A stretch of 37,242 nucleotides of DNA, taken from the NCBI GenBank assembly GCA_945906755.1, contig CAMDRJ010000009.1, positions 1-37,242 of the forward strand. Direction: 5' to 3'. The notes beneath the pieces were generated by a model. It had not been told where the DNA came from. It saw only the letters and a list, made by a program, of their open reading frames with translations, and did no database searches. Below are positions 1-27,337 of this stretch, piece by piece (position 1 is the stretch's first letter; every line of letters begins with the position of its first letter). The DNA comes from Klebsiella pneumoniae (GTDB taxonomy: Bacteria; Pseudomonadota; Gammaproteobacteria; Burkholderiales; SG8-39). The translations under genes were made by a program, and so were the position numbers.

Positions 1-23
1 CGGGAGAGCAACTGTGTCGAGAA

Positions 24-1013
24 TCAAGCCGTTTTTAATGAATCTTTGGTCTGTTGATAATTCGCTTGCCATGGCTTTCCCGACTTGATGATGGCATTGA
101 TGATGATCAGCAGTTTGTGCATGCACGCCACGATCGCCACCTTGGGCAGCTTGCCCGCGCTGATCAGGCGCGCGTGGAAAGCAGCGATTGCCCGATCGTG
201 TTTGATCGCGCTTAGGGTGGCCATGTATAGCGTGGCGCGAACTTGGGCACGCCCGCCCCAGATCGCGCGCTTGCCCCGATACTTGCCGCTGTCGTGGTTC
301 AACGGGGCCACGCCCACCAACTTGCTGATCTGGCGGGCGCTGATTGTGCCAAGCTCGCTCACCATGCTCATCAAGACCGCCTTGGTCACCAGAGCCACGC
401 CTTTCAGACCCACCAGCAAGTCCACCTTTTCCTTGAAGTGCGCCGCCAAGTGCTTGCCGGCATCGGCATCGATTTTCGCAATGTGTTTGTCCAGCACTTT
501 AAGGACCGCATTGATGCTCTTGCGCTGCGAGCGGTGGCACTCGGCGAGGCGATTGTGCTCGGCCACACGCATGCCCACCAGTTGCGTACGACGCACCATT
601 AACGCTTGCAATGCCAGCTGCGCCTCATCGGGCAGACGCATCAGCATGCGCTCGCGCCGATCGCTGGTATGCAACGTACAGACGAACTGGCGCAGCGCCT
701 GCGCATCGATGCTGTCGGTCTTGCTCAGATACCCCAAGGACTTGGCAAAATCGCGTGCCTGGCGCGGATTGACCACCATCACGGCAAAGCTGGCCATGCA
801 CAAGGCCAACCCCGCACGGCGCTCCAACCCGCCGGTGGCCTCCAACACCACCAGAGCCAGGCGCTCCTTCAGCGGATCCAGATACGCGAGCAACTCGCCC
901 AGCCCCTCATCGCTATTGGCAAAGGCTCGAGTCTTGCCTTGCGCTTCGATCGCAACTTCCAAGCTGTCCTTGGATACATCGATGCCTACAAACACCGGTT
1001 CAGAGACGTTCAT
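24..1013 (-). CDS. IS110-family transposase (DEDD RuvC-like N-terminus plus Transposase_20-like C-terminus), apparently intact
   Basis: GIDVSKD, LEATGG and KTDSIDAQ acidic motifs; C-terminal LVGVAPLNHDSGKYRGKRAIWGGRAQVRATLYMATLSA with the conserved Ser; start MNVSEP at 1013 preceded by AAGGAAGG. Confidence 0.93.
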   Translation of the reverse strand: MNVSEPVFVGIDVSKDSLEVAIEAQGKTRAFANSDEGLGELLAYLDPLKERLALVVLEATGGLERRAGLALCMASFAVMVVNPRQARDFAKSLGYLSKTDSIDAQALRQFVCTLHTSDRRERMLMRLPDEAQLALQALMVRRTQLVGMRVAEHNRLAECHRSQRKSINAVLKVLDKHIAKIDADAGKHLAAHFKEKVDLLVGLKGVALVTKAVLMSMVSELGTISARQISKLVGVAPLNHDSGKYRGKRAIWGGRAQVRATLYMATLSAIKHDRAIAAFHARLISAGKLPKVAIVACMHKLLIIINAIIKSGKPWQANYQQTKDSLKTA

Positions 1014-1270
1014 TAGTGCCCTTCCTTGTAAATACGCGGTCCCATCAACTGGGCCAACCAGCAACTGTTCGGGCTATGAACAAACGGTGAATCGAGCACG
1101 CCAAAAGCTCTCCCGCGGGATTCACTCCCTGAGGGCCAACGGGCTATGCTCGACTCTCCCAACCGATCCTTCCGGACATCGCACGACCCCGCATCGCCCA
1201 GCTCGCTATGACTGCCTTGGCTCGGCAATGCAGTTCCAACGCTTAACCACTCTATCAAACGGAATTCGCC
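1014..1270 (-). ncRNA. candidate IS110 bridge-RNA region (non-coding leader upstream of the transposase)
   Basis: About 260 nt of non-coding DNA directly upstream of an IS110-group transposase, where bridge RNAs are known to be encoded; contains the inverted repeat tcgagca/tgctcga (1092-1098/1147-1153) and duplicated blocks GGGCCAAC and GGGCTATG. Exact RNA ends are not determined. Confidence 0.5.
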
Positions 1271-1280
1271 TTCATGCCTC

Positions 1281-1350
1281 GCACTTACCCACAGGGGCAC
1301 AGGGGCCTGTGCGTGGGGCGCCGATCCCCTGTGCCCCTGTGGATAAGTGC
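1281..1350. repeat. long imperfect palindrome (25-bp arms, 1 mismatch, 20-nt loop), REP-like
   Basis: gcacttacccacaggggcacagggg (1281-1305) versus cccctgtgcccctgtggataagtgc (1326-1350): inverted complements with one mismatch. Confidence 0.9.
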
Positions 1351-1462
1351 TGCAAATTTGCATCTTGTGAACCCCCTTCAAACTTCCAAAACTCAGCATA
1401 CAAGGGGAGCGGAGAGAAATTGGGCGTTTCAACGATCAATGGCACCCCTCGTGAGACACCCA

Positions 1463-2470
1463 CTAAGTCGAAACGTTGTAATACGCCCGATACCACGCAA
1501 CAAAGCGCCCGATGCCCTCTTCGATCGAGGTACTCGGTGCAAAGCCGGTAATGGCATTCAAGTCATCGATATCAGCGTAGGTGGCCTGCACGTCACCTGG
1601 CTGCATCGGTTTCATGATCTTGATCGCTTCGCGACCGAGTGCCTGCTCAAGGACTTCGATAAACCGCATCAGCGGCACCGGATTGTTGTTGCCGATGTTG
1701 TAGACGCGAAACGGTGCGTGGCTCGAAGCGGGATCGCTGGTCTGGAAACCGGGACGCGCCACCGGCACGATCGGCAACAGCCGCACCACCCCCTCCACGA
1801 TGTCATCGACAAACGTGAAGTCCCGCTGCATGTTGCCGTGATTGAAGATCTGGATCGGTTCGCCCTGCAGGATCGCTTTGGTGAACAAGAAGAGCGACAT
1901 GTCAGGACGCCCCCAGGGACCGTACACGGTAAAGAACCGCAGCCCGGAGACGGGGATACCGAACAGGTGACTGTAGGTATGCGCCATCAATTCGTTGGCG
2001 CGCTTGGTGGCCGCGTACAGGCTGACCGGATGGTTAGCCGAATCATGCTCGCTGAACGGCAGTTTTGAATTGGCGCCATAGACACTTGAGCTTGACGCGT
2101 AGATCAAATGTTCGATGCCATGATGCCGGCACATCTCAAGCACATTGAGAAATCCGGTGATGTTGGCGTCGATATAGTCTTGCGGCGCATTGAACGAATG
2201 GCGCACGCCCGCTTGCGCGGCCAGATGCACGATACGGCGAATGCTGTGCTCAGCGAACAACGTTTTCATTGCGGCGGCTTCGGCGATTTCCACCCGCTTG
2301 AATGTGAATTTGGGATGCGGCAAAAGGCGCGCCAAGCGGTCTTGCTTTAGCTTTGGGTCGTAATACGCATTGAGATTGTCGATGCCGATCACGGTGTCGC
2401 CGGCGGCCAACAGACGCTCCACCAGATGCATCCCGATAAACCCGGCGGCACCGGTCACAAGCGTGGTCAT
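1463..2470 (-). CDS. NAD-dependent sugar epimerase, UDP-glucuronate 4-epimerase/CapI-like
   Basis: MTTLVTGAAGFIGMHLVERLLAAGDTVIGIDNLNAYYDPKLKQ glycine-rich NAD site; SVYGAN and YAATKRANE (YxxxK) motifs; FTVYGPWGRPDM. Confidence 0.92.
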   Translation of the reverse strand: MTTLVTGAAGFIGMHLVERLLAAGDTVIGIDNLNAYYDPKLKQDRLARLLPHPKFTFKRVEIAEAAAMKTLFAEHSIRRIVHLAAQAGVRHSFNAPQDYIDANITGFLNVLEMCRHHGIEHLIYASSSSVYGANSKLPFSEHDSANHPVSLYAATKRANELMAHTYSHLFGIPVSGLRFFTVYGPWGRPDMSLFLFTKAILQGEPIQIFNHGNMQRDFTFVDDIVEGVVRLLPIVPVARPGFQTSDPASSHAPFRVYNIGNNNPVPLMRFIEVLEQALGREAIKIMKPMQPGDVQATYADIDDLNAITGFAPSTSIEEGIGRFVAWYRAYYNVST

Positions 2471-3189
2471 GGCTTCTCGCCAAATGCCTGCGATACCGTC
2501 CCCGGGCATGCCGGTGGGCACGCGTCTACGCCCACCAGACCAACAACAGGTTGCCCAAAACCTTCACGCGCACGCCAGCCCGGATCTTTGAGGAAAAGAT
2601 TCGTCACCATGCCGCCTGGGTCGTAGTTGGGCCATGGCCGACCCGGATACTTCTTCGTGAATTCATCATGGATGTCTTTGCCGGTCTTGTACCACGGCAC
2701 CTTGCTCATATAGCGTTTGAGCGATTGCCATCGCCATCCGGTGTCTTTTGCGTCCGGCCAAACTTCGTCGCCGTGTTTAATATTCCATGCGGGATCGAGC
2801 AGCCAAGCCTCTTTGCCGAGCACGTCACCAAAAAAGAAGATCCGGCCGTCGCGAATGATGAATTCCGTTGGGTCATGGCCAAGCTTGATTCCGAAGGCGG
2901 CGCCGCTCGAACAATACGCGCCGTATTCCGGAAAATACTTCGCGGGCTCTTTCTCGAATGCCGCACGATTGGCTTCGCTGGCAAAGTAGAAGGTGACGCC
3001 ATCATAGTCTGCGCGAATGGTGGGAAAGCCGCGCGTTGGATTGCCTGCGGTGAAATACGCCACCGGATCGTGTCCAAGCAGCATCAAATCTTCGCCTTGT
3101 GCGCCGCGCATGGTGGCGTACCGCGTGCCGCATCCGGCGACCGTGGCGCTCAACAACATCAATATGATCAAACGTGCCAGTGCTCGCAT
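2467..3189 (-). CDS. YHS-domain lipoprotein (paralog 1)
   Basis: Signal with lipobox ATVAGC; GHDPVAYFT...FASEANRAAFEKEPAKYFPEYGAYC YHS-type core; start at 3189; ATGA overlap with the epimerase start. Confidence 0.85.
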   Translation of the reverse strand: MRALARLIILMLLSATVAGCGTRYATMRGAQGEDLMLLGHDPVAYFTAGNPTRGFPTIRADYDGVTFYFASEANRAAFEKEPAKYFPEYGAYCSSGAAFGIKLGHDPTEFIIRDGRIFFFGDVLGKEAWLLDPAWNIKHGDEVWPDAKDTGWRWQSLKRYMSKVPWYKTGKDIHDEFTKKYPGRPWPNYDPGGMVTNLFLKDPGWRAREGFGQPVVGLVGVDACPPACPGTVSQAFGEKP

Positions 3190-3214
3190 TGGGTCCTCAT
3201 TGAAGGCGATCGTG

Positions 3215-4237
3215 TCAAATCTGCGCAGATTGTCTGGCGCGGGCAAGCGCGACGCGCCCACTGACCGCATCGCTTACCTGAAAACGAGGGCCCATTCTAA
3301 TGCGGTCGAGATAAGACTCGTAGGCAGGCGACCCGGCTGGCCAATTGGCGAGGAAGCGCTTGATCCAGGCGGTCTGATCGTAGTGAACGGGGATGGCATC
3401 GAATCGCACGCCACCGAGGTCAATACCGTACAGACTGTTGGAAGGCAGGGTGCGATCGACCGCAATGCGCGTGATGACACCGTAAGTTGTGCCGGCAAAG
3501 TTCGGCATGCCGGCCGCCCCGTTGTTGATGATGAGACGCGCCTGGCCATCGACCATGTAGTCTTTGGCGATCGGCAGACACGTATGGGTGCTGGCGAATG
3601 CGCAGACCTTGGCAGCGCGAAAGAATTCCGCGATCGTTTCGACGGGTGTAAGAACGCTAGACGACGACTCGCCCGACGCGCATGCATTGCCCGCGACGAG
3701 TTGCTCCTGTGCGAACGACCAGCCCGCCAACGACTCTGCATCGCCATGCACCACACCCACGCGCGCTTCGCCGATCTGAATTGTGAGCGCCAACGGCAAT
3801 GCATCCAATGCACAGCAAATGTCTGGCATACCCGCCGCCACCGACTGCAAGCTCGTCATGAGCGCATTCGAACGGTCCACCGTCGCTGCATCCACATAGT
3901 CCGGATAATTGCATCCGCAACCACTGCCCGAGGGAGCGCCGATTTCCGCTTCGACATTGCCCTTGATTGCGATGTGGCCAAGCACGGTTTCGTTCAGCAA
4001 GCGAAAGCCGGATGTATCCACATTGAACCAGTTGAAATCCCCGTTGAAGACGAGTGACACGCGCCGCCCTGCGCGAAGTTCTTCGTCTCGCATCCGCTGA
4101 ATCGTGCGCAAGGCTTCCGGGTTGCAGTACAACCCACCGACGATGTACACCGTCTCTTCGACCTGTGACGCCGGCCCACTAAACAAGGTCGGGGAATAGC
4201 GATAGTGGAGCGGGCAGGACTGACCAGGTGAATTCAT
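3215..4237 (-). CDS. metallophosphoesterase-like protein (divergent)
   Basis: Ordered motifs VFNGDFNWF, IKGNVEAEIG, VGVVHGDAES and STHTCLP resemble calcineurin-like phosphoesterase blocks; the expected first DxH is replaced by GGLYCN. Confidence 0.6.
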   Translation of the reverse strand: MNSPGQSCPLHYRYSPTLFSGPASQVEETVYIVGGLYCNPEALRTIQRMRDEELRAGRRVSLVFNGDFNWFNVDTSGFRLLNETVLGHIAIKGNVEAEIGAPSGSGCGCNYPDYVDAATVDRSNALMTSLQSVAAGMPDICCALDALPLALTIQIGEARVGVVHGDAESLAGWSFAQEQLVAGNACASGESSSSVLTPVETIAEFFRAAKVCAFASTHTCLPIAKDYMVDGQARLIINNGAAGMPNFAGTTYGVITRIAVDRTLPSNSLYGIDLGGVRFDAIPVHYDQTAWIKRFLANWPAGSPAYESYLDRIRMGPRFQVSDAVSGRVALARARQSAQI

Positions 4238-4379
4238 CGGCGTGATGCGTTGTCATACGTGGGATGGATCTGCTGCGCGCCAATGTGCCACATCCGATAC
4301 ATCTCGTCGCCTGTTTCGCGCGTATAGAATATCGAATGAAAGCGGGTTGTCTTCTTTCGGTACAAAAAGGGCGTTGCGA

Positions 4380-5333
4380 ATGTCGGAAGCAATACGCGAG
4401 CGAGTGATGCCGATCACCGTGCGAAAGTTCGTCGATCCGGCCGTCACTGCAAAAGGGGAACGCCGCGCCAAGGTCACCCTCGGTTCGCTTGATACGCTAT
4501 GGATCAACACCGGCACCCTCTGCAATCTGGCCTGCGAGCATTGCTATATTGAATCGACGCCCACCAACGATCGATTGGCGTATCTCACGGCAGACGAGGT
4601 AGCCGCCTACCTTGACGAAGCGCGACAGCTTGGCACGCAGCTGATCGGCTTCACTGGCGGTGAACCTTTCATGAATCCTGCGTTCATAGTGATGCTTGAA
4701 GACGCGCTGTCGCGTGGCTTTGATGTCATCGTACTTACCAACGCGATGCGCCCGATGATGAAGGTCAAGGCAGCGCTGCTGGCGCTTCGCGGGGCGTATG
4801 GCGCAAAACTGGTGATCCGCGTATCGCTCGATCACTACACGCGCGAATGGCATGAACAGGAGCGCGGGAAGCGCTCATGGAAACCAAGCATCGACGGCCT
4901 GAAATGGCTCAAAGCCAATGGGTTCAAGCTGAATGTGGCAGGAAGGCTGTTCTCGGGGGAACCTGAGCCGGTCGTGCGCGCCGGATTCGCGCGACTATTC
5001 GAAGCGGAGGCGATTGCCGTCAATGCGAATGATGCCGGTGAACTCGTGCTCTTTCCGGAAATGGACGTCAATATCGACGTGCCGGAAATCACCGAGGCCT
5101 GCTGGGGCATCCTGCATAAGACACCCGCCGATGTGATGTGCGCGTCGTCACGCATGATCGTCAAGCGAAAAGGCGAGAGCCGCCCATCGGTAGTCGCCTG
5201 CACATTGCTGCCCTACGACCCGCAATTTGAATTGGGCCACACGCTCGCGGATTCGAAAAAAGAGGTTGCGCTCAATCACCCCCACTGCGCGAAATTCTGC
5301 GTGCTGGGTGGCGCGAGTTGCGGCGGCAACTAA
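4380..5333 (+). CDS. radical SAM protein with SPASM-like C-terminal cysteines
   Basis: CNLACEHCY (CxxxCxxC), GFTGGEPFMNP; C-terminal MCASSRM...VVACTLLPYDPQFELG...CAKFCVLGGASC. Start uncertain (4380 or 4407). Confidence 0.87.
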   Translation: MSEAIRERVMPITVRKFVDPAVTAKGERRAKVTLGSLDTLWINTGTLCNLACEHCYIESTPTNDRLAYLTADEVAAYLDEARQLGTQLIGFTGGEPFMNPAFIVMLEDALSRGFDVIVLTNAMRPMMKVKAALLALRGAYGAKLVIRVSLDHYTREWHEQERGKRSWKPSIDGLKWLKANGFKLNVAGRLFSGEPEPVVRAGFARLFEAEAIAVNANDAGELVLFPEMDVNIDVPEITEACWGILHKTPADVMCASSRMIVKRKGESRPSVVACTLLPYDPQFELGHTLADSKKEVALNHPHCAKFCVLGGASCGGN

Positions 5334-5905
5334 TCGGGGCGCGTCAGCGACAGAAACTCGTTGCGCAGCGCGTGATTGTTCTGCAGATTGCCCAGCATCG
5401 CCGAGGTCACCGTCTCTTCGCCCGGCACCGCAACGCCGCGCGATTCCATGCACATATGGCGGCAACGAATGATGACGCCGACCGCCTGTGGGCGCAGATG
5501 AAGAAGAAGTGATTCGGCGATCTGTTGCGTGAGACGCTCCTGCACTTGCAAACGCGCTGCGAAGCAATTCACCAGCCGGGTGAGTTTTGAGAGCCCGACG
5601 ATGTGACCATTCGGCAAATAACCGATCGCCGCGTGTCCGAAGAAGGGCGCCAAGTGATGCTCGCAGTGGGAGTACACCGGAATCTTCCGCACCACGATAA
5701 GCTCGTTGTAATGCTCGCTGCCGTCCTCGAACATCTTGAGAATCGAGGCGGGGTCTTCCTGGTAGCCGCGCGTCCAATGCGCCCAGGCTTTTCTCACCCG
5801 CTCCGGCGTTTCAACCAGACCCTGACGGTCGGGGTCCTCGCCGAGGGTGCGCAGCAATCGCTTCCAGTCAGCGTTACCAAAAGCGTCAGATTTGGCGGTA
5901 GTCAT
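5330..5905 (-). CDS. folE: GTP cyclohydrolase I
   Basis: KIPVYSHCEHHLAPFFGHAAIGYLPNGHIVGLSKLTRLVNCFAARLQVQERLTQQIAE; CRHMCMESRGV zinc/active-site motifs. Confidence 0.96.
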   Translation of the reverse strand: MTTAKSDAFGNADWKRLLRTLGEDPDRQGLVETPERVRKAWAHWTRGYQEDPASILKMFEDGSEHYNELIVVRKIPVYSHCEHHLAPFFGHAAIGYLPNGHIVGLSKLTRLVNCFAARLQVQERLTQQIAESLLLHLRPQAVGVIIRCRHMCMESRGVAVPGEETVTSAMLGNLQNNHALRNEFLSLTRPD

Positions 5906-5934
5906 CGTTTAATTGGTCGAATGATCTTTAATCC

Positions 5935-6501
5935 CTAGCTTTTCTTCGCCTGGCGAGCCTGCCATTCGGCCTCAAGATCCTTGCCGGTTTTGTAGTGCGG
6001 CACCTTGAAGAAGACCCGCCAATAGGAATGGAAGAATGCGCTTGAGATATTGCTCATTTCCGTCTTCCAATAACCATCGCCCAATTCGATGTTTTTCTTC
6101 TCGTCCATCTCCCAGTACTTGCGGGAATCCGGACCACTGAACACGAAAAGGCGCCCGTCGACGATTTTGTAAGCGCTCGCACCACCACCCAACAAAATGC
6201 TATAGGGAGCGCCGTTTGCGCAGTAGCCGCCATATTGCGGTGCGTATGTTGCGGGCGCCTTGGTGAACAGCTCGCGATTGGCGGCATTGGCGAATCGATA
6301 GGTTCCGCCATCCCACTCCGCGGTGATGCTCGGATCACCCTTAATTGGGCTTGGGCCGGTGTGATAAGACACCGGATCGTTACCTGCGAGCATTGCCTTG
6401 CCGCCCGCGCCATCGCTTAGCATGTTGCGCGTAGCGCAGCCGGAAGCGAGCACCAGCAACGCGCCCACAACGAGGAACTTCATCCAACGATTCGCTTGCA
6501 T
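5935..6501 (-). CDS. YHS-domain lipoprotein (paralog 2)
   Basis: Lipobox LASGC; GNDPVSYH...FANAANRELFTKAPATYAPQYGGYCANG; shares VPxYKTGKD with paralog 1. Confidence 0.86.
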   Translation of the reverse strand: MQANRWMKFLVVGALLVLASGCATRNMLSDGAGGKAMLAGNDPVSYHTGPSPIKGDPSITAEWDGGTYRFANAANRELFTKAPATYAPQYGGYCANGAPYSILLGGGASAYKIVDGRLFVFSGPDSRKYWEMDEKKNIELGDGYWKTEMSNISSAFFHSYWRVFFKVPHYKTGKDLEAEWQARQAKKS

Positions 6502-6707
6502 TGTGAATCCTTCAAGTCATGCGTGAGCGTGATTGTACCGGTGAACCGGCCGATGACTGCTGCAGGCGCGATCTGAATCTGTCGCCGCAGCCGTTGCATG
6601 GGTACCAGTCGTTCGAGACGGCTATACTCAGCAACCACGCGCGGGGTCGCATAGCCATAGCGAATCTATCCACTCCCACCCCCGTGCAGATTCCTCTAGC
6701 ATGACGA

Positions 6708-8627
6708 ATGAATCCACGCCGCCTCCTCGCCTTTCTTCATGATCTGATTGCCTCTGCACTGGCGTGGGTGTTGGCGTATTTGCTGCGATTCAATTTCGAG
6801 ATCCCAGCCGACTTCGAGGCGGTGCTGGTCACCAATATTGGTATCGTCGTCGTGATACAGGCGATGATTTTCTATGCGTTTGGTCTGTACCGCGGCGTGT
6901 GGCGATTCGCGAGTCTTCCAGACCTCAGGCGAATCATCATGGCGGCCGGCACGTGCGCGCTGGCGACGCCCACTGCACTCGCCCTGAGCCTCAGCTTGCA
7001 GGGTGTCCCGCGATCCATTCTGGTGCTCGACCCTATCTTGTTGATGCTTATTCTTGCCGGCAGCCGCATCGCGTACCGGGTCTGGAAAGAAGGCAATCTT
7101 GTCTCATTGCGATCGCTCGATGGCAAGTATGTTTTGATCCTTGGCGGCGGTGATGCTGCCGAGATGCTGCTGCGCACGCTTGCCACGAATCGCGAATGGC
7201 GCGCGGTTGGACTGCTCGATGATTCGATTCGCCGGCATGGTGCGCTTATTCGAGGCGTCCCAGTGCTTGGCGCACTCGACACCATCGCCAAGCACGCTGC
7301 GCACTTCGGCGTCAAACACGCGATCGTCGCCATGCCCTCGGCGCTCCCCTCGGAGCGTCGGCGCGCAGTTCAGCTGGCAACCGCAGCAGGACTGTCCGTC
7401 CTTACAGTTCCAGCGATGGCGGATTTGGTGAGCGGCAAAGTCTCGGTGTCGGAGGTCCGCCGCGTGGATGTCGAAGACTTGCTCGGGCGCGAACAAGTGC
7501 AGCTCGACGATGCGGGCATTCGCAGCTACTTGAGTGGCAAGACCGCGATGGTGACGGGCGCGGGCGGCTCGATCGGGTCGGAGCTTTGCCGGCAGATTGC
7601 GCGCTACGCGCCACGCGCGCTGGTGTTCTTCGAGGCGAGCGAATTCGCGCTCTACCGAATGGAACAGGAGTTCCGCGCGAATCACCCCGACTTGCCCATC
7701 ATTTGTATTGCGGGTGACGTGCGCGATGCGAAGCGCATCGAATCGATCATCGCGAAGCATTCGCCCGATGTCATTTTCCATGCCGCCGCGTACAAACACG
7801 TCCCGTTGATGGAAGAACACAACGCCTGGGAAGCCGTGCGAAACAACGTGCTGGGAACACTCACTGTCGCCGACGCCGCCGCACGAGCCGGTGTCGGCAA
7901 ATTCGTAATGGTCTCGACCGACAAGGCGGTCAATCCCGTCAACGTGATGGGCGCAACCAAACGACTAGCGGAGATGATCTGCCAGTCGCTGCAACAAAGT
8001 GCGACCACCCGTTTTGTCATGGTGCGCTTCGGCAATGTGCTTGGCAGCGCGGGTAGCGTCATTCCGAAATTTCGCGAACAGATCGCGGCGGGCGGCCCGG
8101 TCACCGTCACCCATCCGGACATTCAGCGTTACTTCATGTCGATTCCGGAAGCCAGTCTACTCACCATGCAGGCCGGCGCAATGGGCGCCGGCGGCGAGAT
8201 CTTCGTGCTCGACATGGGCGAGCCGGTGAAGATTGTCGATCTCGCGCGCGACATGATTCGCCTCTCCGGATTTTCGGAGCGCGATATAAAAATCGCGTTC
8301 ACTGGCCTGCGCCCCGGCGAGAAGCTGTTCGAGGAATTACTCGCCGATAGCGAGACAAGCCTAGCGACACCGCATCCGAAATTGCGCATCGCCAAGGCGC
8401 GTGCGGCCGGGAAAGAAGAATGGCTGGAAGCATTGCGGCGCTGGCTGGCGCAGTCGCCGGTCAACGATGACGCGGTTGTGAGAGAAGAGTTGGTTCGGTG
8501 GGTGCCGGAGTATGTGGCGATGCAAAATGCGGCGCCACGCGTACAAGAGGAAAACGGGGCGTTGCGCAGTACCGCGGCATCGATCGCTACCGTGAACAAC
8601 ATTGGCGTAGCGGTCGTGCGCCTGTGA
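6708..8627 (+). CDS. membrane nucleoside-diphosphate-sugar epimerase/dehydratase (CapD/WbpM/PglF-type)
   Basis: N-terminal hydrophobic segments, CoA-binding-like region, TGAGGSIGSELCRQIARYAP, HAAAYKHVPLMEEH, RFGNVLGSAGSVIPKFREQI, GLRPGEKLFEELL. Confidence 0.94.
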   Translation: MNPRRLLAFLHDLIASALAWVLAYLLRFNFEIPADFEAVLVTNIGIVVVIQAMIFYAFGLYRGVWRFASLPDLRRIIMAAGTCALATPTALALSLSLQGVPRSILVLDPILLMLILAGSRIAYRVWKEGNLVSLRSLDGKYVLILGGGDAAEMLLRTLATNREWRAVGLLDDSIRRHGALIRGVPVLGALDTIAKHAAHFGVKHAIVAMPSALPSERRRAVQLATAAGLSVLTVPAMADLVSGKVSVSEVRRVDVEDLLGREQVQLDDAGIRSYLSGKTAMVTGAGGSIGSELCRQIARYAPRALVFFEASEFALYRMEQEFRANHPDLPIICIAGDVRDAKRIESIIAKHSPDVIFHAAAYKHVPLMEEHNAWEAVRNNVLGTLTVADAAARAGVGKFVMVSTDKAVNPVNVMGATKRLAEMICQSLQQSATTRFVMVRFGNVLGSAGSVIPKFREQIAAGGPVTVTHPDIQRYFMSIPEASLLTMQAGAMGAGGEIFVLDMGEPVKIVDLARDMIRLSGFSERDIKIAFTGLRPGEKLFEELLADSETSLATPHPKLRIAKARAAGKEEWLEALRRWLAQSPVNDDAVVREELVRWVPEYVAMQNAAPRVQEENGALRSTAASIATVNNIGVAVVRL

Positions 8628-8648
8628 CAACGGCCCACCCCGAACTCG

Positions 8649-9824
8649 TTACGGTCGCCTCCTCGCGTCCCGAGCCTTATGCTCGGCAAGCCACGCCACC
8701 AAGTGCGCCGCGATGCGCTCTGAAGCACGCCCGTCCCAAAACTTCGGTACGCGCCCGCCCTTGCCGCCGGCGCGAAGGATCTCATCGACGAGGCGAAGAA
8801 TCAGTACACGGTCGGCACCCACCAGCGTGTTGGATCCTTCGTCGATCGTAATCGGACGCTCGGTGTTATCGCGCATCGTCAGACAGGGAACCGCAAGTGC
8901 AGTTGTTTCTTCCTGGATGCCGCCTGAATCGGTGAGGACCAGCAAGGCGCCATCCATCAGTCCCAGCATTTCCAAATAGCCCTGCGGCGGCAAGCATGCG
9001 ATCCGTGCCGACGCCAGCGCCGATGTGAGCCCGAACCGCTCAATATTCGCGCGAGTGCGTGGATGCAATGGCCAAATAAGCGGTACGCGCCTGCTCACTT
9101 CGACCAGCGTGCCGATCGCCGCACGCAGAGCCCCCACGTCATCAACATTGGACGGGCGATGCAGTGTCACCACGCCATAGCCCTTGCACTTGCCAAATAA
9201 CGACGGATCGATGTTTCCCTTCGACAAGGTCTGCGCGACCGGAATCGCTCTGGCCCGACTTGAGAGCAATGAATCGATCATCACATTGCCGACGAAGTGC
9301 ACACGATCAGCGCCAATGCCTTCCCGAGTGAGGTTGCCAAGCGCTGTCTCCCCGGTCGTGTAAAGAACATCGGAAATCTGGTCGGTGAGGATGCGATTGA
9401 TCTCCTCTGGCATCGCGCGATCAAAGCTACGCAGCCCAGCCTCGACGTGCACCACTGGAACCTGTTTCTTGGCCGCCACGAGTGCGCATGCGATCGTTGA
9501 ATTGACATCGCCGACAACCACGACGCAGCTGGGTTTGTGGGCATCCACGACCGGCTCGAATCGGCGCATGACCTCGGCCGTTTGCACTGCATGCGATGCC
9601 GATCCGACTTCCAGATTGACATCTGGATTAGGCAACGCGAGGTCTTGAAAAAGCTGATCGCTCATCGCTGCGTCGTAGTGCTGACCGGTGTGTACGAGCA
9701 GCGCTTTCGGCGCACCGGCTTGTGCACCCAGCGCACGCAGGATCGGCGCCATCTTCATGAAGTTCGGCCGCGCACCGACGATGCAAAGGATGGGGCGGGA
9801 TTCGTGTCCTGGTACTGTCATCAT
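8649..9824 (-). CDS. wecB: UDP-N-acetylglucosamine 2-epimerase (non-hydrolysing)
   Basis: IVGARPNFMKMAPILRAL, VHTGQHYD, VVGDVNST, HVEAGLRSFDRAMPEEINR, TDSGGIQEE motifs. Confidence 0.95.
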   Translation of the reverse strand: MMTVPGHESRPILCIVGARPNFMKMAPILRALGAQAGAPKALLVHTGQHYDAAMSDQLFQDLALPNPDVNLEVGSASHAVQTAEVMRRFEPVVDAHKPSCVVVVGDVNSTIACALVAAKKQVPVVHVEAGLRSFDRAMPEEINRILTDQISDVLYTTGETALGNLTREGIGADRVHFVGNVMIDSLLSSRARAIPVAQTLSKGNIDPSLFGKCKGYGVVTLHRPSNVDDVGALRAAIGTLVEVSRRVPLIWPLHPRTRANIERFGLTSALASARIACLPPQGYLEMLGLMDGALLVLTDSGGIQEETTALAVPCLTMRDNTERPITIDEGSNTLVGADRVLILRLVDEILRAGGKGGRVPKFWDGRASERIAAHLVAWLAEHKARDARRRP

Positions 9825-10866: not shown

Positions 10867-11635
10867 GCGCCGGACCCCGTGTGCGGTGATGCTCTTGACC
10901 GATGACGAATTCCTTCACCTTGGGATCTTGGAGTGCCACCGCGGCCGGGGCATCGCAGATGATTTCGCCTTGATAGAACGCGAGCACGCGGCTTACATAG
11001 CGTTCGACGATCTCCATGTCGTGCTCGATGAACAGCACGGTGGTCTTTTCTTCGCGCAGCGCCGCCATGATGATGTCCATGATGCCGAATTTCTCTTCGA
11101 CGCTGATGCCACTGGTTGGCTCATCGAGCATCAGGAGCTTTGGTTTGCGCACGGTGGCCATCGCGATGTCCAGCAGCTTTCGCACGCCTTGGGGCAGTGC
11201 AGTGGCGCGCACATCGCGATACTCGCTGATCCGGTAACGCGCCAATTGCGCTTCGACGCGTTGGGTGCGCGCGGCATTTTCGATGTTACGCAGCAAACCC
11301 CAGCCGCGTTCTTCGGCAATGCCATAGGCGATCAGCATGTTCTCGAAAACAGTTTCGGAGGTAAATACCTGCGCCACCTGGAACGAGCGGCAAACGCCCA
11401 GCTTGGTGATGTCGCGGGGCTTCAAGCCGACGATATTCTTGCCGAGGAACTCGATCGCGCCCGCCGAGGGCTTGAGGTAGCCGGTCACCATGTTGACGAA
11501 CGTGGTCTTGCCGGCGCCATTGGCACCGATGACGCCAATCGTTTCGCCTTCGGCGATATTGACGTTGATGTTGGCGGCCGCGACCACACCGCCGAAGGTC
11601 TTGTGCAAATCGCGGACATCGAGCACGGTACTCAT
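10859..11635 (-). CDS. livG: branched-chain/amide-type ABC transporter ATP-binding protein
   Basis: MSTVLDVRDLHKTFGGVVAAANIN; GANGAGKTTFVN; LMLDEPTSG; C-terminal IGQEH LivG-like. Confidence 0.93.
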   Translation of the reverse strand: MSTVLDVRDLHKTFGGVVAAANINVNIAEGETIGVIGANGAGKTTFVNMVTGYLKPSAGAIEFLGKNIVGLKPRDITKLGVCRSFQVAQVFTSETVFENMLIAYGIAEERGWGLLRNIENAARTQRVEAQLARYRISEYRDVRATALPQGVRKLLDIAMATVRKPKLLMLDEPTSGISVEEKFGIMDIIMAALREEKTTVLFIEHDMEIVERYVSRVLAFYQGEIICDAPAAVALQDPKVKEFVIGQEHHRTRGPAHA

Positions 11636-12582
11636 GACGTCTTGGCATTCCGCAGCCGCGCCATCACCGACCACAACCCGTTCGGCAGGAACATGATGAT
11701 GAGCAGCAACGCGCCACCCATAATCAATTGCCAGAGTTTCGGCGAATATTGGAACGCGAGACTCCGAATGATTTCGAACACGAACGCGCCGATGTAAGTA
11801 GCCGCGACATTCCCCGTGCCGCTCAAGATCGTGATGAAGACGAACTCACCCGAGACGGTCCAGTAAGCCATTGAATCCGGATCGACGATGCCAACCGTCA
11901 TGCCCATCAACACGCCACCGAAACCGGCGAGCAATGCGGAGATCACGTACTTCACATGCACAGCGCGGTGCGCCGAGTAACCGAGATATTCGAGCCGGAT
12001 TTCATTTTCGCGCACGGCGGTGCTCATCGCGCCCAAGGTCGACTTCATGTAGAGATGCACCGCAACCGAGAAAAGCCAGGTCAGCACGATCGCGAAGAAG
12101 TAGATCGCAAGCTTGCTTTGATCGCCGGCGAACACCATGCCGAAGAATCGCGGTGCGGCGATCGACAGGCCATCGGTGCTGCCCAATGCTTCGGTTTTGG
12201 CGAGCAAGCCCCACAGCACCATCGAAAACGCCATGTTGAGCAGCGCAAAGAAAATGCCGCGATATTGGCGCAGCAAAAATCCAAGCAGGAAGGCGAGCAC
12301 GCCGCTTGCGATCAATCCGGCGGCGACCATCGCAAATGCATCATTCACGATCATGCGCTGCATGAAGACCGCGCCATAGGCGCCCGCCGCGAAATACAAC
12401 GCATGGCCGAAAGAAATCAAGCCGGTGCGCCAGAGCACCAGCAGGCCAAGCGCCACCGCACCGCGCGCAAAGCTCTGCAAGAAGATGAAGAGCATCCAAT
12501 TCGGAATCAATGCGGCCAACACCGCCAATACGACGGCGGCAATCGACAATCCGATGACGGTGCGATCGGCAAGGCGGTTCAT
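11632..12582 (-). CDS. livM: branched-chain/amide-type ABC transporter permease
   Basis: Multi-TM protein; HALYFAAGAYGAVFM, ENEIRLEYLGYSAHRAVHVKYVISALLAGFGGVL motif. Confidence 0.92.
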   Translation of the reverse strand: MNRLADRTVIGLSIAAVVLAVLAALIPNWMLFIFLQSFARGAVALGLLVLWRTGLISFGHALYFAAGAYGAVFMQRMIVNDAFAMVAAGLIASGVLAFLLGFLLRQYRGIFFALLNMAFSMVLWGLLAKTEALGSTDGLSIAAPRFFGMVFAGDQSKLAIYFFAIVLTWLFSVAVHLYMKSTLGAMSTAVRENEIRLEYLGYSAHRAVHVKYVISALLAGFGGVLMGMTVGIVDPDSMAYWTVSGEFVFITILSGTGNVAATYIGAFVFEIIRSLAFQYSPKLWQLIMGGALLLIIMFLPNGLWSVMARLRNAKTS

Positions 12583-13475
12583 ATCTTCCTCGCCTTCACT
12601 GGCACGAACAGGCCTTCCGGACGGAAGATCAGCACGCCGGCCATGATGATGTAGATCACGAACAACTCAATCGACGGCAACAGATGCACCGCCGCCGCGC
12701 GCGAAATGCCGACGATCACCGCACCAATCAGCGCGCCGGGAATGCTGCCCATACCGCCGATCACCACCACGGCAAACGCGATGACGATGACCTCAACGCC
12801 GATCCCGGGCAACACCGAAATGGTCGGTGCGAGGTAAGCACCGCCCAGTGCCGCAAGGATGGAACCAAGGATGAACGTGGTGAGAAATACCGCAGTCACG
12901 TTGATGCCCATGGCGCGGCTCACTTCACGATCGTAAATCACCGCAAGCAGCATCTTGCCCCAGGTGGTGCGACGCAGCGCGTACCAAAGCGACAGCGCCA
13001 ACACGCCTGAAATCGCGATCATCGACAGATTGTAATTATCGAATTTGAGCCCGGCGATTTGCGTAGCGCCCAGCTCCTGCACCGGTTGCACGGCGTAATA
13101 AGGATCGGTGCCCCAGATAAGAAGGATCACATCCTCCAAGGCGAGGAATGCCGCGAACGTCGCGAGCACCACGATGTGTTCATCGCGATCGTACAAATAC
13201 TTGAGGAGACAACGCTCGATGATCAATCCGAGCACGATGCCGACGACTGCCGCCGACACCACGATAATGAGAAAGCCGCCGTATGCGGGCCATCCAGCCT
13301 TGTACCAGGCGCCGATCAGCATGGCGGCCAGATACGCGCCGAACGCGAAGAACGAACCGTGCGCCGTGTTGAGAACGCGCTGGACACCGAAGATGACGGT
13401 AAGCCCTACCGCCACCATGAACAGGTAAGACGCGTAGACAAGCCCGTCGACCAGAATAACTGCGAGCAATTGCAC
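12579..13475 (-). CDS. livH: branched-chain/amide-type ABC transporter permease
   Basis: LTVIFGVQRVLNTAHGSFFAFGAY; AVVVIGGMGSIPGALIGAVIVG. Confidence 0.93.
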   Translation of the reverse strand: MQLLAVILVDGLVYASYLFMVAVGLTVIFGVQRVLNTAHGSFFAFGAYLAAMLIGAWYKAGWPAYGGFLIIVVSAAVVGIVLGLIIERCLLKYLYDRDEHIVVLATFAAFLALEDVILLIWGTDPYYAVQPVQELGATQIAGLKFDNYNLSMIAISGVLALSLWYALRRTTWGKMLLAVIYDREVSRAMGINVTAVFLTTFILGSILAALGGAYLAPTISVLPGIGVEVIVIAFAVVVIGGMGSIPGALIGAVIVGISRAAAVHLLPSIELFVIYIIMAGVLIFRPEGLFVPVKARKI

Positions 13476-13524
13476 GAAGTGAGCCTTGCGAGTGAAGCGC
13501 GAATAGTGAGCTACAGGAGCTTCA

Positions 13525-13547
13525 CCGGAAGCGGGACGCGCTTCCGG
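13525..13547. repeat. perfect 9-bp stem-loop in the SBP-livH spacer
   Basis: ccggaagcg-ggacg-cgcttccgg. Confidence 0.8.
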
Positions 13548-13580
13548 ATCGGCGTACCTGCGTTAGTTCTTAACTGAACA

Positions 13581-13596
13581 AGGGGGCTCGCCCCCT
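13581..13596. repeat. GC-rich stem-loop in the SBP-livH spacer
   Basis: agggggctcgccccct, self-complementary (AGGGGGC/GCCCCCT). Confidence 0.75.
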
Positions 13597-13620
13597 CGTA
13601 ACTCCCTGAATAGATGGGCA

Positions 13621-13650
13621 CGCTGATTGCGCGGGATAGCTTAATCAGCG
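13621..13650. repeat. 8-bp perfect inverted repeat in the SBP-livH spacer
   Basis: cgctgatt (13621-13628) and aatcagcg (13643-13650). Confidence 0.8.
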
Positions 13651-13702
13651 CTTCCTTAGTTCTTCCGCTGCGGGTGTACGGTGCGGCAAGCCGCGGCCCG
13701 TT

Positions 13703-15034
13703 CTAGCACTTCGCGCCTTTAATGCCGGCCTTGATCCACTCGGTGGAATCGTGCGCGTCGGCCGGGGGATTCACGCAGTCGGCCGGATAGGTGACAACGT
13801 CTCTTACCATCGGCTCGTTCAATTTCATATCCCAGGAGAGAATGCCCCACATATCTTCGGTCACGGCTTGGTGACCTTTGCTCAGCGACATCCGCACCGT
13901 GCCGGCAAGCGAGGTGAAGGTTGCACCACGCAGAGCGGTAATCACTTGATCGGTACTGGGGAACTTGCCGCCGTTGGCCGCCTGCGCGCGGTCATACGCA
14001 TATTTGGCCCCGAGCACGCCTTGCACATATTGATAGGCCGCTTGCGACGGCTGCTCCTTGAAGCGTGCGCGGTATTCGCGTTGGAACCACACGTTGAGGG
14101 GCGATTTGTTGAGTTCGGTCGAGGCATAGATGCCGTACGGCCCGCGCGCGCCAACCAGCGAACCCATCGGGAACTGCTTGCCGAGGCGATAGACCGCGGA
14201 ATCGCCAACCGTGAAGAGGAACAGCTTGTTATCGAACAGCCCGCGCGGCTGCCCCTGGAAAATCAATGATTCGATATCGCCACCCCATACGCTGGAGTGC
14301 ACGATCTGCTCGGGCGCGCGCAGCATCGCCGAGATTTCCGAACCGAACTGGCCACCGAATAGTTTCGGAAACTGCGGCGCGGTCGTCTGGATCATCTTGG
14401 GCGCCAGCACTTTCATCGACATATCGAAGTCACGCCAGGAATCCTGACCCCAGGCGTAGTTCGGATTGACCCCGGTGTAGCCGTTCTTGTCGCCATACTT
14501 GGCCACGACATACCGGGCCAGCGACAGATTGCTCGCGACCGCATGGTTCATGGTGCGGAACACGTACTTCGGTTCTTTCACCAATTCTTCGAAAACCCGC
14601 GGCGTACCGCAGATCGTAAGCAGCGTGAGAACCTTCAGCTCTTCGGCGACCGGCGCGACGGCGGAACAGCTGCCTGAAGAGACGTAGCCCACCACGATAT
14701 CGACGTTCTCTTTTTGCACCTTGTTGCGCAGTTCGGCGACCTGCTTGGTATTGCCGCCCGACTCGTCATAGATCAGGGTCTTGACGCGCGCACCGCCCAT
14801 GCCTTTGGTGTTGTAGGGGGCCGGCATCGTGCCGGCATTGATCGCATCGATGACCAGTTCGACGCCCTGCTTGCCGGGCACGCCGAAGGCAGGACCGCCC
14901 GCGCCGGTCGTAAAGGTGGGCACCGCCATGGTGATTTCGTCTTTGGCGAGCGCACTGCCCGATCCCATCACCAGCGCCGTAACGAGCGAAGCGCCCAGCG
15001 CGCGTGTGATGCCCCGAAACTTAAGCGTATGCAT
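13703..15034 (-). CDS. Liv-type ABC transporter periplasmic substrate-binding protein
   Basis: Signal peptide MHTLKFRGITRALGASLVTALVMGSGSALA; KQGVELVIDAIN..KTLIYDESGGNTKQVAELRNKV; first gene of the liv operon; strong AAGGAGG upstream. Confidence 0.9.
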   Translation of the reverse strand: MHTLKFRGITRALGASLVTALVMGSGSALAKDEITMAVPTFTTGAGGPAFGVPGKQGVELVIDAINAGTMPAPYNTKGMGGARVKTLIYDESGGNTKQVAELRNKVQKENVDIVVGYVSSGSCSAVAPVAEELKVLTLLTICGTPRVFEELVKEPKYVFRTMNHAVASNLSLARYVVAKYGDKNGYTGVNPNYAWGQDSWRDFDMSMKVLAPKMIQTTAPQFPKLFGGQFGSEISAMLRAPEQIVHSSVWGGDIESLIFQGQPRGLFDNKLFLFTVGDSAVYRLGKQFPMGSLVGARGPYGIYASTELNKSPLNVWFQREYRARFKEQPSQAAYQYVQGVLGAKYAYDRAQAANGGKFPSTDQVITALRGATFTSLAGTVRMSLSKGHQAVTEDMWGILSWDMKLNEPMVRDVVTYPADCVNPPADAHDSTEWIKAGIKGAKC

Positions 15035-23261: not shown

Positions 23262-25322
23262 CTATGCTCGCCTTTCCCCCGGTGCGATCGGTGTATCAAT
23301 CCCGCGCAACCGCACGGTATCGCCCGCCACAACGCCCAACACCTGGCGCCCAAATGCATCCATTGGGAAGGCATCGGCCGGCGCGCTCTCGTCGAGCTTG
23401 ACCCATGCCCGGAGCGGCGCGGGATGTCGGCCGAGTAATTCAATCAACTGATTCGATCGCACGCCAAGACGTTGTGCCGTCGCGTTACGCATGCGCAACA
23501 CGCGATGCCGGCCTTTGATGCCTTCATAGGGTGGGGATTCGTCGGCGATGATCGGCAGTCTGACGATCGCACTCGCTAACTGCGCGCGCAGACTCGTCGT
23601 GCCGTCCTGATCGACCCCACCGTCGCGATCGAAGGCGACGCCGTACGCCGACCGCGCGCACGCCTCTGAAACGTATCCCGCGCTCACATCGGCTGCGACC
23701 CGCGCGGGTTCGCGCACCAACGGATCGCCATAGCCGCCACCGCCCGCCGATTGCAGGATGAATACCGAATCGCGGCGCAGGCGCACGCCGGTGGCCTTGC
23801 CCGGCGTGACGAGCGGCACATCCTGCCCGTTCGCGCGGATCGATACGCTCACCGGCGCGGCGCTTGCGCCGCCACCGACGCCATACGGCGGGACCACCGC
23901 TCGATCACTCAAGACCGAGTACACCGCCTCGTCACCTGCCAGCCGAATTTCTCTATGTAGACCGAGCCCACCGCGCATGCGACCCGCCCCGCCTGAATCG
24001 ACGCGCAGTGCGCTTTTCTCCACGACGATCGGCATATCGGTTTCCAGTGACTCCGCGTTGTGAATCGAGCGAATGTTGCCGAAATCGACATTGACATAGA
24101 CGCTCGATCCATCGGCTTCAGCGAAGCCGCCGTTGCCGCCTGCGGGGGCCTCGTAGTAGACGTACGAACGATTGCGACGCGCGTCGCGCCCACCCATCGA
24201 GCTTGGAAATGAGGTGCCGCAGAGATCGCCCGACACCAAATCAGGCGCCACTTGCGCAAGGCAACCCAGCATCACCGACACCGCGCGCTTACGCACTTCA
24301 CCATGTGCGCCGGCCGGTGCATCCGCACGCACATCGACGATCGATGCCTCGGGTGCCTTGAGCGTGATCGGTCGAAACGCGCCTTGATTCACCGCGCCAC
24401 CCGGGTCGAGCGTCGATTTCAGCGCGACGAAGACACCTGCACCGACGACCGCAAGCGATGAATTGACCACGCCCGGTACCTGCGGATTGCTGCCCGCGAA
24501 ATCAGCCGTCACCCCATCACCGGCGATGGTCAATGCCAAACGCATCAATACCGGATCAAAACGCCCTTCGTCGTAGTACTCCAGATAGTCCTCATACACA
24601 TAGGTCCCGGCGGGCAAGGTACGGATGCGGCTGCGCATGCGTGCCTCGCTGCGATTGAGGTTGATCGCGAGACATTCGAGCACGGTATCGAGCCCATATT
24701 TGCCAAACAGTTTATGCAGGCGTTGCTCGGCCGCGCGAACCGCACCCAACATGGCGTTGAGATCGCCTTTACGGTCCTCGGGTAAGCGCATATTCGCTTC
24801 GATCAGGCGCATCACCGCTTTGTTCGGCTGGCCGCGTTCGTACAGCTTGATCGGCGGCATGCGCAGGCCCTCTTGATAAATATTGGTCGAGAGCCCGGAG
24901 TAACTGCCCGGGGTCGCACCACCCACATCGGCCCAGTGCGAACGCACGGCCGGCAACATCACCAGCTGATCGCCTGCGAACACCGGATAGAGCAGCGTCA
25001 CATCATTGAGATGCGTGCCGCCGCGATAGGAATCGTTGAGGAGAATGATGTCGCCCGGATGGATATCGTTCTCGAAGTCTTCCATCGCGCAGCGCACCGA
25101 CCAAGGCATCGGCATGACATGACCCGGATGATCGTTCGACTGCGCCACCATCTCCGCTTTAGCATTGAACAGCGCGCAGGAAAAATCATCCATCTCATAG
25201 ATCACCGGCGAATAGGAAGCGCGAATGATCGAAGCGCGCATCTCACGCACGACTGCGATCAACGACTCACAGACGACTTCGAGCGTGATGGGGTCAACCG
25301 CGGGATCGATCGCGCTATTCAT
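23262..25322 (-). CDS. hydantoinase B/5-oxoprolinase-type subunit with a C-terminal extension
   Basis: MNSAIDPAVDPITLEVVCESLIAVVREMRASIIRASYSPVIYEMDDFSCALFN; HPGDIILLNDSYRGGTHLNDVTL; SAGGGGYGDPLVREP. Confidence 0.94.
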   Translation of the reverse strand: MNSAIDPAVDPITLEVVCESLIAVVREMRASIIRASYSPVIYEMDDFSCALFNAKAEMVAQSNDHPGHVMPMPWSVRCAMEDFENDIHPGDIILLNDSYRGGTHLNDVTLLYPVFAGDQLVMLPAVRSHWADVGGATPGSYSGLSTNIYQEGLRMPPIKLYERGQPNKAVMRLIEANMRLPEDRKGDLNAMLGAVRAAEQRLHKLFGKYGLDTVLECLAINLNRSEARMRSRIRTLPAGTYVYEDYLEYYDEGRFDPVLMRLALTIAGDGVTADFAGSNPQVPGVVNSSLAVVGAGVFVALKSTLDPGGAVNQGAFRPITLKAPEASIVDVRADAPAGAHGEVRKRAVSVMLGCLAQVAPDLVSGDLCGTSFPSSMGGRDARRNRSYVYYEAPAGGNGGFAEADGSSVYVNVDFGNIRSIHNAESLETDMPIVVEKSALRVDSGGAGRMRGGLGLHREIRLAGDEAVYSVLSDRAVVPPYGVGGGASAAPVSVSIRANGQDVPLVTPGKATGVRLRRDSVFILQSAGGGGYGDPLVREPARVAADVSAGYVSEACARSAYGVAFDRDGGVDQDGTTSLRAQLASAIVRLPIIADESPPYEGIKGRHRVLRMRNATAQRLGVRSNQLIELLGRHPAPLRAWVKLDESAPADAFPMDAFGRQVLGVVAGDTVRLRGIDTPIAPGERRA

Positions 25323-27337
25323 TGCACGCTCCTTCTCAAATGCAACTCGCCCACACTGCCAACTTCCACTCGCCAATCGGGCGGCACGATCGTCACCGCA
25401 CCCATTTCCTCGATGATAACCGGACCCACGATCCGCGCATTACGTGGTAGCTCGTCGCGTGCATACACCGGCACTTTATAGGGATGGCCCGCAAACCAGA
25501 CTTGGCGTGAACCTGCCGCCGCGAGGGAGCCTGTGACCGTCCACTCGCCAAGCTTCGGTTTGGCGACCCGCCCAATCGCCGTGACGCGCAAACTCACGAT
25601 CTCGATCGGATCGGCCGCGCGATAACCGTAGCGCCGTTCATGTGCCGCATGAAACAGCGATGCAAGCGTCGCCGCATCCGGTGTCTTCTCGGGCAGACGC
25701 ACGATGAGATCCCATGATTGGCCGACATAACGCATGCCGGCACTGCGCTGCAACGACACATCCCCCGCGGGCAATCCTTCTTCAATCATTGCGCTACGTG
25801 CCGCCGCTTCGATCTGCAGGAACGCGTCTTCGACGCCTACCAGCTCGCCATCGATCAAGGCCGCGCGATGGGTGCGCAGATGATCATGGCGAACATCGGA
25901 GATCAGCGCACCGAATGCGCAGAAATTACCCGGGCGAAGTGGCACCAGGACATGCGCGATCTCCAGTTCTTCGGCAATGAATGCGGCATGCATCGGACCG
26001 GCGCCACCAAACGCGACGAGCGTGAAATCCCGCGGGTCGTAGCCCTTTGATACCGAAATTTCCTTGATTGCACTGACCATGCGCGCCACCGCAATCCGAA
26101 TGATGCCTTCGGCAGCGCGTGGCAAGTCGAGCGAATCGAACACCGCCACGATGCGCTGCACCGCTTGCTGCGCCAAGGACTCGTCAAGCGCGACGGTCCC
26201 GGCAAGTTTGAGCGAAGAGGCCAGACGGCCGATCGCAAGATTGGCATCGGTGACGGTAGGCTCAACGCCCCCTTTGCCGTAACACGCGGGTCCCGGCACC
26301 GCCCCTGCGCTCTTCGGTCCCACCTTAAGGATGTTACCGGTGTCGACCCACGCAATGCTCCCGCCACCTGCGCCGACCGAGTTGATCTCGATCTGCGGCG
26401 TGCGTACCGGCAGCCCATCGATGAATTGCTCGGAGGTGAGCGGCACATTCAAGTCTTCGATCAGGCAAACATCCGTACTCGTGCCACCCATATCGTACGT
26501 AATCAAATTACGCACGCCGACCAGTCCACCGAGATGGATCGCCGCCGCCACACCACCTGCCGGACCGGAGAGCACGGTATGCACCGGAAAGCGCGCCGCG
26601 CGTTCCGCTGTTTCGATGCCGCCGCTCGAGGCCATCAGATGCACCGCGCCACGATAGCCGCGCTCCCGCATTAGGCGACTCAACTCGCCAAGATATCGCG
26701 CAGTGAGTGGCCCAATGTAGGCATTCAACACGGTGGTGTTGAAGCGCTCGTATTCGCGCATCTCAGGCAGGATCTCCGCCGAATGGCAAACGAACCAGTC
26801 GGGCAGCGCCGCACGCAGAATCTTCACGGCGGCTTCCTCATGCGCGCCATTGAGATAGCTATGCAGGAAGCAAACCGTCAATGCCGCAGGTGGTTCGGTG
26901 CGTAGACGCTCGGCAATCCGACGGATCTCATCCAAATCAAGCGCGCGCAGCACGCTGCCATCGACCAACACACGTTCGTCCACTTCGATGACGCGTTGAC
27001 GTGGCACGAGCGATGCGGGTTTCAGCGTCTTGATGTCGTACAGCACGGTCCGGTTGGTGCGCGCGATTTCGAGCGTGTCGCGAAAGCCCTTGGTTGTGAT
27101 TACCCAGACCGGTGCGCCGCGCCGTTCGAGAATTGCGTTAGTACCGATCGTGACGCCATGCACGAACCGGTCGGTGGTGGCGAGATCAACCCCGTTACGA
27201 TCCATCGCTGCCAGCACGCCACCAGCGGGCGCATGGGGCGTGGAGGGCGCCTTCGCCCAGGCGAGTTCGCCACTCTGATCATCGTAATAAACCGCATCGG
27301 TAAAGGTGCCACCGACATCGACGCCGACCATGCGCAT
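25319..27337 (-). CDS. hydantoinase A/5-oxoprolinase-type subunit
   Basis: MRMVGVDVGGTFTDAVYYDD; VHGVTIGTNAILERRGAPVWVITTKGFRDTLEIAR; YDMGGTSTDVCLI; FGGAGPMHA. Confidence 0.95.
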   Translation of the reverse strand: MRMVGVDVGGTFTDAVYYDDQSGELAWAKAPSTPHAPAGGVLAAMDRNGVDLATTDRFVHGVTIGTNAILERRGAPVWVITTKGFRDTLEIARTNRTVLYDIKTLKPASLVPRQRVIEVDERVLVDGSVLRALDLDEIRRIAERLRTEPPAALTVCFLHSYLNGAHEEAAVKILRAALPDWFVCHSAEILPEMREYERFNTTVLNAYIGPLTARYLGELSRLMRERGYRGAVHLMASSGGIETAERAARFPVHTVLSGPAGGVAAAIHLGGLVGVRNLITYDMGGTSTDVCLIEDLNVPLTSEQFIDGLPVRTPQIEINSVGAGGGSIAWVDTGNILKVGPKSAGAVPGPACYGKGGVEPTVTDANLAIGRLASSLKLAGTVALDESLAQQAVQRIVAVFDSLDLPRAAEGIIRIAVARMVSAIKEISVSKGYDPRDFTLVAFGGAGPMHAAFIAEELEIAHVLVPLRPGNFCAFGALISDVRHDHLRTHRAALIDGELVGVEDAFLQIEAAARSAMIEEGLPAGDVSLQRSAGMRYVGQSWDLIVRLPEKTPDAATLASLFHAAHERRYGYRAADPIEIVSLRVTAIGRVAKPKLGEWTVTGSLAAAGSRQVWFAGHPYKVPVYARDELPRNARIVGPVIIEEMGAVTIVPPDWRVEVGSVGELHLRRSVQ

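Follow-up and report, generated by a model that had tools for sequence, protein, structure and literature searches.

A complete IS110-group insertion sequence whose left non-coding end very probably encodes a bridge RNA

Among known systems the nearest is IS621 of E. coli (IS110 group) with its 177-nt bridge RNA (PMC11208160; PMC11208158), and structures of the IS621 and ISCro4 (PDB 9t56) recombinases have both been solved. In the IS1111 group, the seekRNA likewise works with a DEDD recombinase, but there the RNA usually lies downstream of the gene and the subterminal repeats are long (PMC11187229). PMC1525189 records that IS110 elements insert into REP elements, and REP elements are also given as IS110 insertion sites in PMC11208160. 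ISPpu9 is another insertion sequence that lies in REP sequences, and its folded 5′ transposase leader is reported to be able to hide the ribosome site (PMC8450116). The window (the whole 37,242-nt stretch of DNA analysed here) contains, to judge from its sequence, a complete insertion sequence of the IS110 group whose left non-coding end very probably encodes a bridge RNA. RNAs of this kind are already known and the window's member is new; the main claim confirms published knowledge.

The recombinase gene, which the initial annotation had called an intact transposase, is indeed so.

24..1013, minus strand: IS110-family recombinase (transposase), 329 amino acids, intact (NF033542, PF01548, PF02371; conserved catalytic residues)

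It starts with the ATG at 1013, and its product has the DEDD RuvC domain and the Tnp domain with its catalytic serine (PF01548, PF02371, NF033542). Residues D12, E58, D100, D103, and S242 are invariant among its relatives and correspond by position to D11, E60, D102, D105, and S241 of IS621 (PMC11208158). The closest solved recombinase by sequence is that of ISCro4 (124 bits with phmmer), whereas IS621 is a distant relative at 118 bits. Scans of genome contigs and viral contigs with the single protein found no relatives, and an alignment query was required there; the closest of the relatives used below have 41–60% recombinase identity.

The source assembly is at draft level, with 381 contigs, several of which end inside copies of the element. 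Five left flanks part just before CTTGTATGCTGAG, and the right flanks part after ACACAGTTGCT; this divergence places the element between 1404 and 9, and each end has a CT core.

9..1404, minus strand: whole IS110-group element, left-end core included and right-end core excluded (copies elsewhere in this genome have divergent flanks on both sides)
1403..1404, minus strand: left-end core CT (divergent flanks of copies)
7..8, minus strand: right-end core CT (divergent flanks of copies)
1405..1411, minus strand: left target flank of the window copy, CGCTCCC
1..6, minus strand: right target flank of the window copy, CTCCCG, truncated where the contig ends

The non-coding leader that had been noticed before the start codon is therefore real but longer than the roughly 260 nt first given (it runs for about 390 nt, to the core at 1404–1403), and no element boundary falls inside the 1014–1270 region where it had been placed. 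The stop codon lies about 15 nt from the right end and the RNA is upstream of the gene, so that the long non-coding end with an RNA 3′ of the gene that marks the IS1111 group is absent. The right flanks of the copies read CTCCCGC (CTCCCGT in one of the five), a short loop, and GGGG, which together make the arm of a palindromic repeat, and CCCTCTCCCGCnnGGGG occurs uninterrupted four times in the genome; by their sequence the targets are REP-like repeats. The near-identical element ends at several distinct genomic sites suggest recent movement. One contig start (L006, G000:C80:1-202) fuses an internal stretch of the element to a right end of opposite orientation; the copy is rearranged, or the assembly is in error there. 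Sugar-nucleotide genes adjoin the element in the window (1463–9824), comprising an NAD-dependent epimerase (1463–2521), a Polysacc_synt_2 protein (6708–8627), and a UDP-GlcNAc 2-epimerase (8649–9824); farther along are branched-chain amino acid transport permease and binding protein genes (11632–15034) and neighboring hydantoinase/oxoprolinase B-type and A-type genes (23262–27337).

The hairpin in the leader is where the initial annotation had put it: the inverted repeat tcgagca/tgctcga lies exactly at 1092–1098 and 1147–1153, and the minus-strand hairpin GGGA-GTGAA-TCCC that it encloses is at 1129–1117. The stem is longer than first noted (11 bp plus 3 bp), and the whole hairpin, which does belong to the putative bridge RNA, makes up only its target-binding loop; the donor-binding loop sits between it and the start codon, which is itself taken into the donor-loop basal stem.

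1008..1157 (about), minus strand: bridge RNA core (covariation; covariance model)
1089..1156, minus strand: target-binding loop; outer stem 1156–1146/1099–1089, inner stem 1144–1142/1102–1100, hairpin 1129–1126/1120–1117
1008..1085, minus strand: donor-binding loop; basal stem 1085–1078/1015–1008, second stem 1073–1071/1021–1019, hairpin 1059–1050/1044–1038

The leaders of relatives align with that of the window, and covariation among 18 related elements, which had been proposed as a check on the fold, bears it out. In the target-loop stem 13 of 14 pairs have changed on both sides and 92.9% of cells are paired; in the donor-loop basal stem the figures are 7 of 8 pairs and 93.1%, and in the fold as a whole double changes occur in 24 of 36 pairs. 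With a covariation score of 0.500, the fold exceeds the shuffled control (0.192), which ignores relatedness, and the slid controls, which preserve it and reach 0.116 at most. The donor-loop hairpin (helix 5) is weaker, with 63% paired. For the basal stem, two alternative registers had been scored earlier and gave a poorer fit (50.0% and 33.3% paired, versus 93.1% for the one kept); the kept register is the RNAalifold proposal on the same alignment, so that the slid control is somewhat favorable for that helix. The target-loop stem result is independent of this choice. Folding of the core as a single sequence (a 162-nt segment) gives z = −1.2, which is not distinguishable from chance; it is the comparative covariation, not single-sequence folding, that sets the hairpin apart. 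That unexceptional z value is what could be said for a chance fold, or for a piece of the host target repeat, but the compensatory changes refute a chance fold and the hairpin is internal to the element, about 250 nt from its boundary, which leaves such an explanation with a negligible probability.

A covariance model (R1) was built from the same 18 elements, with IS621 outside the training set. At E < 0.001 it detects the RNA in 85 sources out of 91, including 67 of the 73 non-training sources (a few of these 67 being duplicate elements). The bridge RNA of IS621, which is proven by experiment, scores 39.8 bits with it, immediately ahead of the IS621 gene, and a relative with 83% identity scores 36.0 bits. 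Rfam had no matching family for the window or for the relatives' leaders. In an Acidovorax contig (L062:2194-2494), the bridge RNA match is cut at the donor-loop hairpin and followed by an N, a second left end, and a full bridge RNA; this double left end is possibly a scaffold join.

The two loops contain the candidate guides, those for the target being:

1132..1140, minus strand: left target guide region GTTGGCCCT, ending in core CT (alignment position relative to relatives)
1108..1116, minus strand: right target guide GCGGGAGAG, complement of CTCTCCCGC (flank matches)
1107, minus strand: putative handshake base C, which would pair with the donor G before the core (position relative to IS621; invariant C in the alignment)

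The right guide GCGGGAGAG is the reverse complement of CT plus CTCCCGC. Read from the window copy and compared with the flanks of all copies, it matches the right flank at 7 of 7 bases in four other copies, 6 of 7 in one, and all 6 known bases in the window copy. The left guide matches its own left flanks weakly (2–4 of 5 bases), and target choice by this element may thus rest mainly on the right guide. Among relatives, both guides follow the sites in which the elements lie. The 34 distinct right guides match 4.29 of 5 bases of their own flanks, compared with 1.53 (sd 0.19) when shuffled, and the left guides match 3.74 of 5, compared with 2.35 (sd 0.11), a one-base shift of register being allowed equally in real and shuffled sets; none of 20,000 shuffles reached the real value for either guide. 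Each distinct guide was represented once, which removes relatedness only in part, and the test is not circular, since right ends were placed by the donor guide and not by the target guide. In an Accumulibacter element (L064:1220-1367), the right target guide GTGGGTTAG matches its own right flank at 1 of 5 bases, unlike its close relatives, possibly because the guide changed recently or the flank was rearranged.

The donor-binding loop contains sequences that correspond to the ends of the element itself, and the joined ends in turn contain a predicted promoter.

1060..1068, minus strand: left donor guide ACAGTTGCT, identical to the right end (15–7)
1025..1033, minus strand: right donor guide ATTTACAAG, which pairs with left-end CTTGTAT with two bases bulged as in IS621
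22..27, minus strand: −35 half of the junction promoter, TTGATT, overlapping the stop codon
1395..1400, minus strand: −10 half of the junction promoter, TATGCT (sequence of the joined ends)

The pairing of AUUUACAAG with CTTGTAT is discontinuous in the IS621 manner. Joining of the ends yields TTGATT-17-TATGCT, and at a spacing of exactly 17 a −35-like hexamer is present in 49 of the 60 elements whose two ends were both located, whereas the remaining spacings in the 12–22 range have 0–6 each; promoter spacing played no part in locating the ends.

It might be argued that this is a bridge RNA by descent in an element that no longer functions in guiding, in view of the weak left guide match and of a second handshake base, U at 1106, which is unpaired with the donor where most close relatives have an A that would pair. 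The recombinase and the stems are intact, however, the right guide and both donor guides are perfect, and the near-identical ends at distinct sites speak for recent movement, so that loss of function appears unlikely. A different proposal is that the leader has no guide role and is a structured 5′ untranslated region for control of transposase translation, as reported for ISPpu9. The position of the start codon within the donor-loop basal stem and the folded ISPpu9 leader (PMC8450116) lend it some appeal, but regulation alone gives no reason for loop bases to track each element's own target flank, for donor guides to equal the element ends, or for the match of the IS621 RNA to the model; we consider it very improbable in this exclusive form, and regulatory and guide roles may coexist. 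The initial annotation's identification of the leader as an IS110 bridge RNA is thus upheld by its position, the covarying two-loop fold, the guide matches to target flanks and to the element's ends, the joint variation of guides and targets among relatives, the junction promoter, and the IS621 model match.

With the leader read as a bridge RNA, the following cycle can be proposed. By homology with IS621, the element would excise as a circle, and its joined ends would form the TTGATT-17-TATGCT promoter, from which the leader, the bridge RNA, and the recombinase gene would be transcribed. The RNA would be bound by the recombinase, and its target-binding loop should pair with a REP-like repeat around CT, the left guide with the bottom strand and the right guide GCGGGAGAG with top-strand CTCTCCCGC. 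The donor-binding loop should pair with the joined ends of the element itself (ACAGTTG-CT-TGTAT), after which the recombinase would cut and exchange strands beside CT.

Comparison with IS621 shows that the two share a left-end RNA immediately upstream of the gene, the order of target-binding and then donor-binding loop, the CT core, a right donor guide of the form AUUUxCAAG with the same bulge, the junction promoter, REP-like targets, and the covariance model match. The right target guide of the window element is longer, however, and at IS621 position 161 it has A, which makes a standard pair, in place of the G161 of IS621, which makes a non-canonical one; a G161-to-A change in IS621 was designed by Hiraizumi and colleagues (PMC11208158). 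Given the likeness to IS621, it is plausible that the guides of the window element could be reprogrammed, as had been suggested at the outset.

The single unusual feature is upstream of the bridge RNA, where the window element has several predicted hairpins, one of them of 25 bp, in a 235-nt leader and IS621 has a short 5′ stem-loop, of which no counterpart was recognized in the window element.

1158..1392, minus strand: leader of 235 nt with strong folding (z = −5.5), lying between promoter and bridge RNA
1281..1350, no strand assigned: 25-bp inverted repeat inside the leader (1350–1326/1305–1281), present only in copies of the element

The palindrome at 1281–1350 was considered as a host repeat outside the element and this was ruled out, since it lies inside the element and only in its copies. 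One of its arms contains a DnaA-box-like sequence, TTATCCACA, that matches the DnaA-box consensus perfectly. IS110-group elements of Betaproteobacteria such as L058 and L062 (recombinases 58–61% identical) have a nearly identical donor loop, ends, and core and a similar target guide, but their leaders are about 30 nt long and lack the large hairpin. Among relatives generally, leaders are short (0–81 nt), of a small middle class (97–99 nt), or long (150–274 nt), and the long ones are strongly folded (L041 excepted). On the recombinase tree, the long class requires seven changes, at least five of them forced by well supported branches, and the leader hairpins are unlike in sequence from lineage to lineage. 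Seven relatives have a common branched leader structure before the bridge RNA (GGCTGTGGAGCTTGTGGGC ... GTCCACAAATCCACAGCC) with double changes in 13 pairs, and a search of Rfam gave no match for it:

L071:2186-2350: branched leader before the bridge RNA
L054:1685-1850: branched leader before the bridge RNA
L078:2182-2350: branched leader before the bridge RNA
L073:2179-2364: branched leader before the bridge RNA
L105:1332-1481: branched leader before the bridge RNA
L090:1638-1792: branched leader before the bridge RNA
L075:2169-2363: branched leader before the bridge RNA

We offer, tentatively and with more doubt than confidence, the idea that a large hairpin leader is a functional module that IS110 elements have repeatedly gained or lost with unrelated sequences, in the form of a 25-bp hairpin in the window element and of branched structures in other lineages. 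A part in RNA stability, in processing, or in control of transcription or translation would be a guess.

The element thus adds an IS110 system distant from IS621 whose recombinase, ends, core, target, and four guides can all be read, with a long right target guide and, as its natural base, the A that was engineered into the IS621 RNA. IS110 systems of this kind are candidate bridge-recombinase tools, and the recurrent gain or loss of hairpin leaders raises the question of how bridge RNAs are made or controlled.
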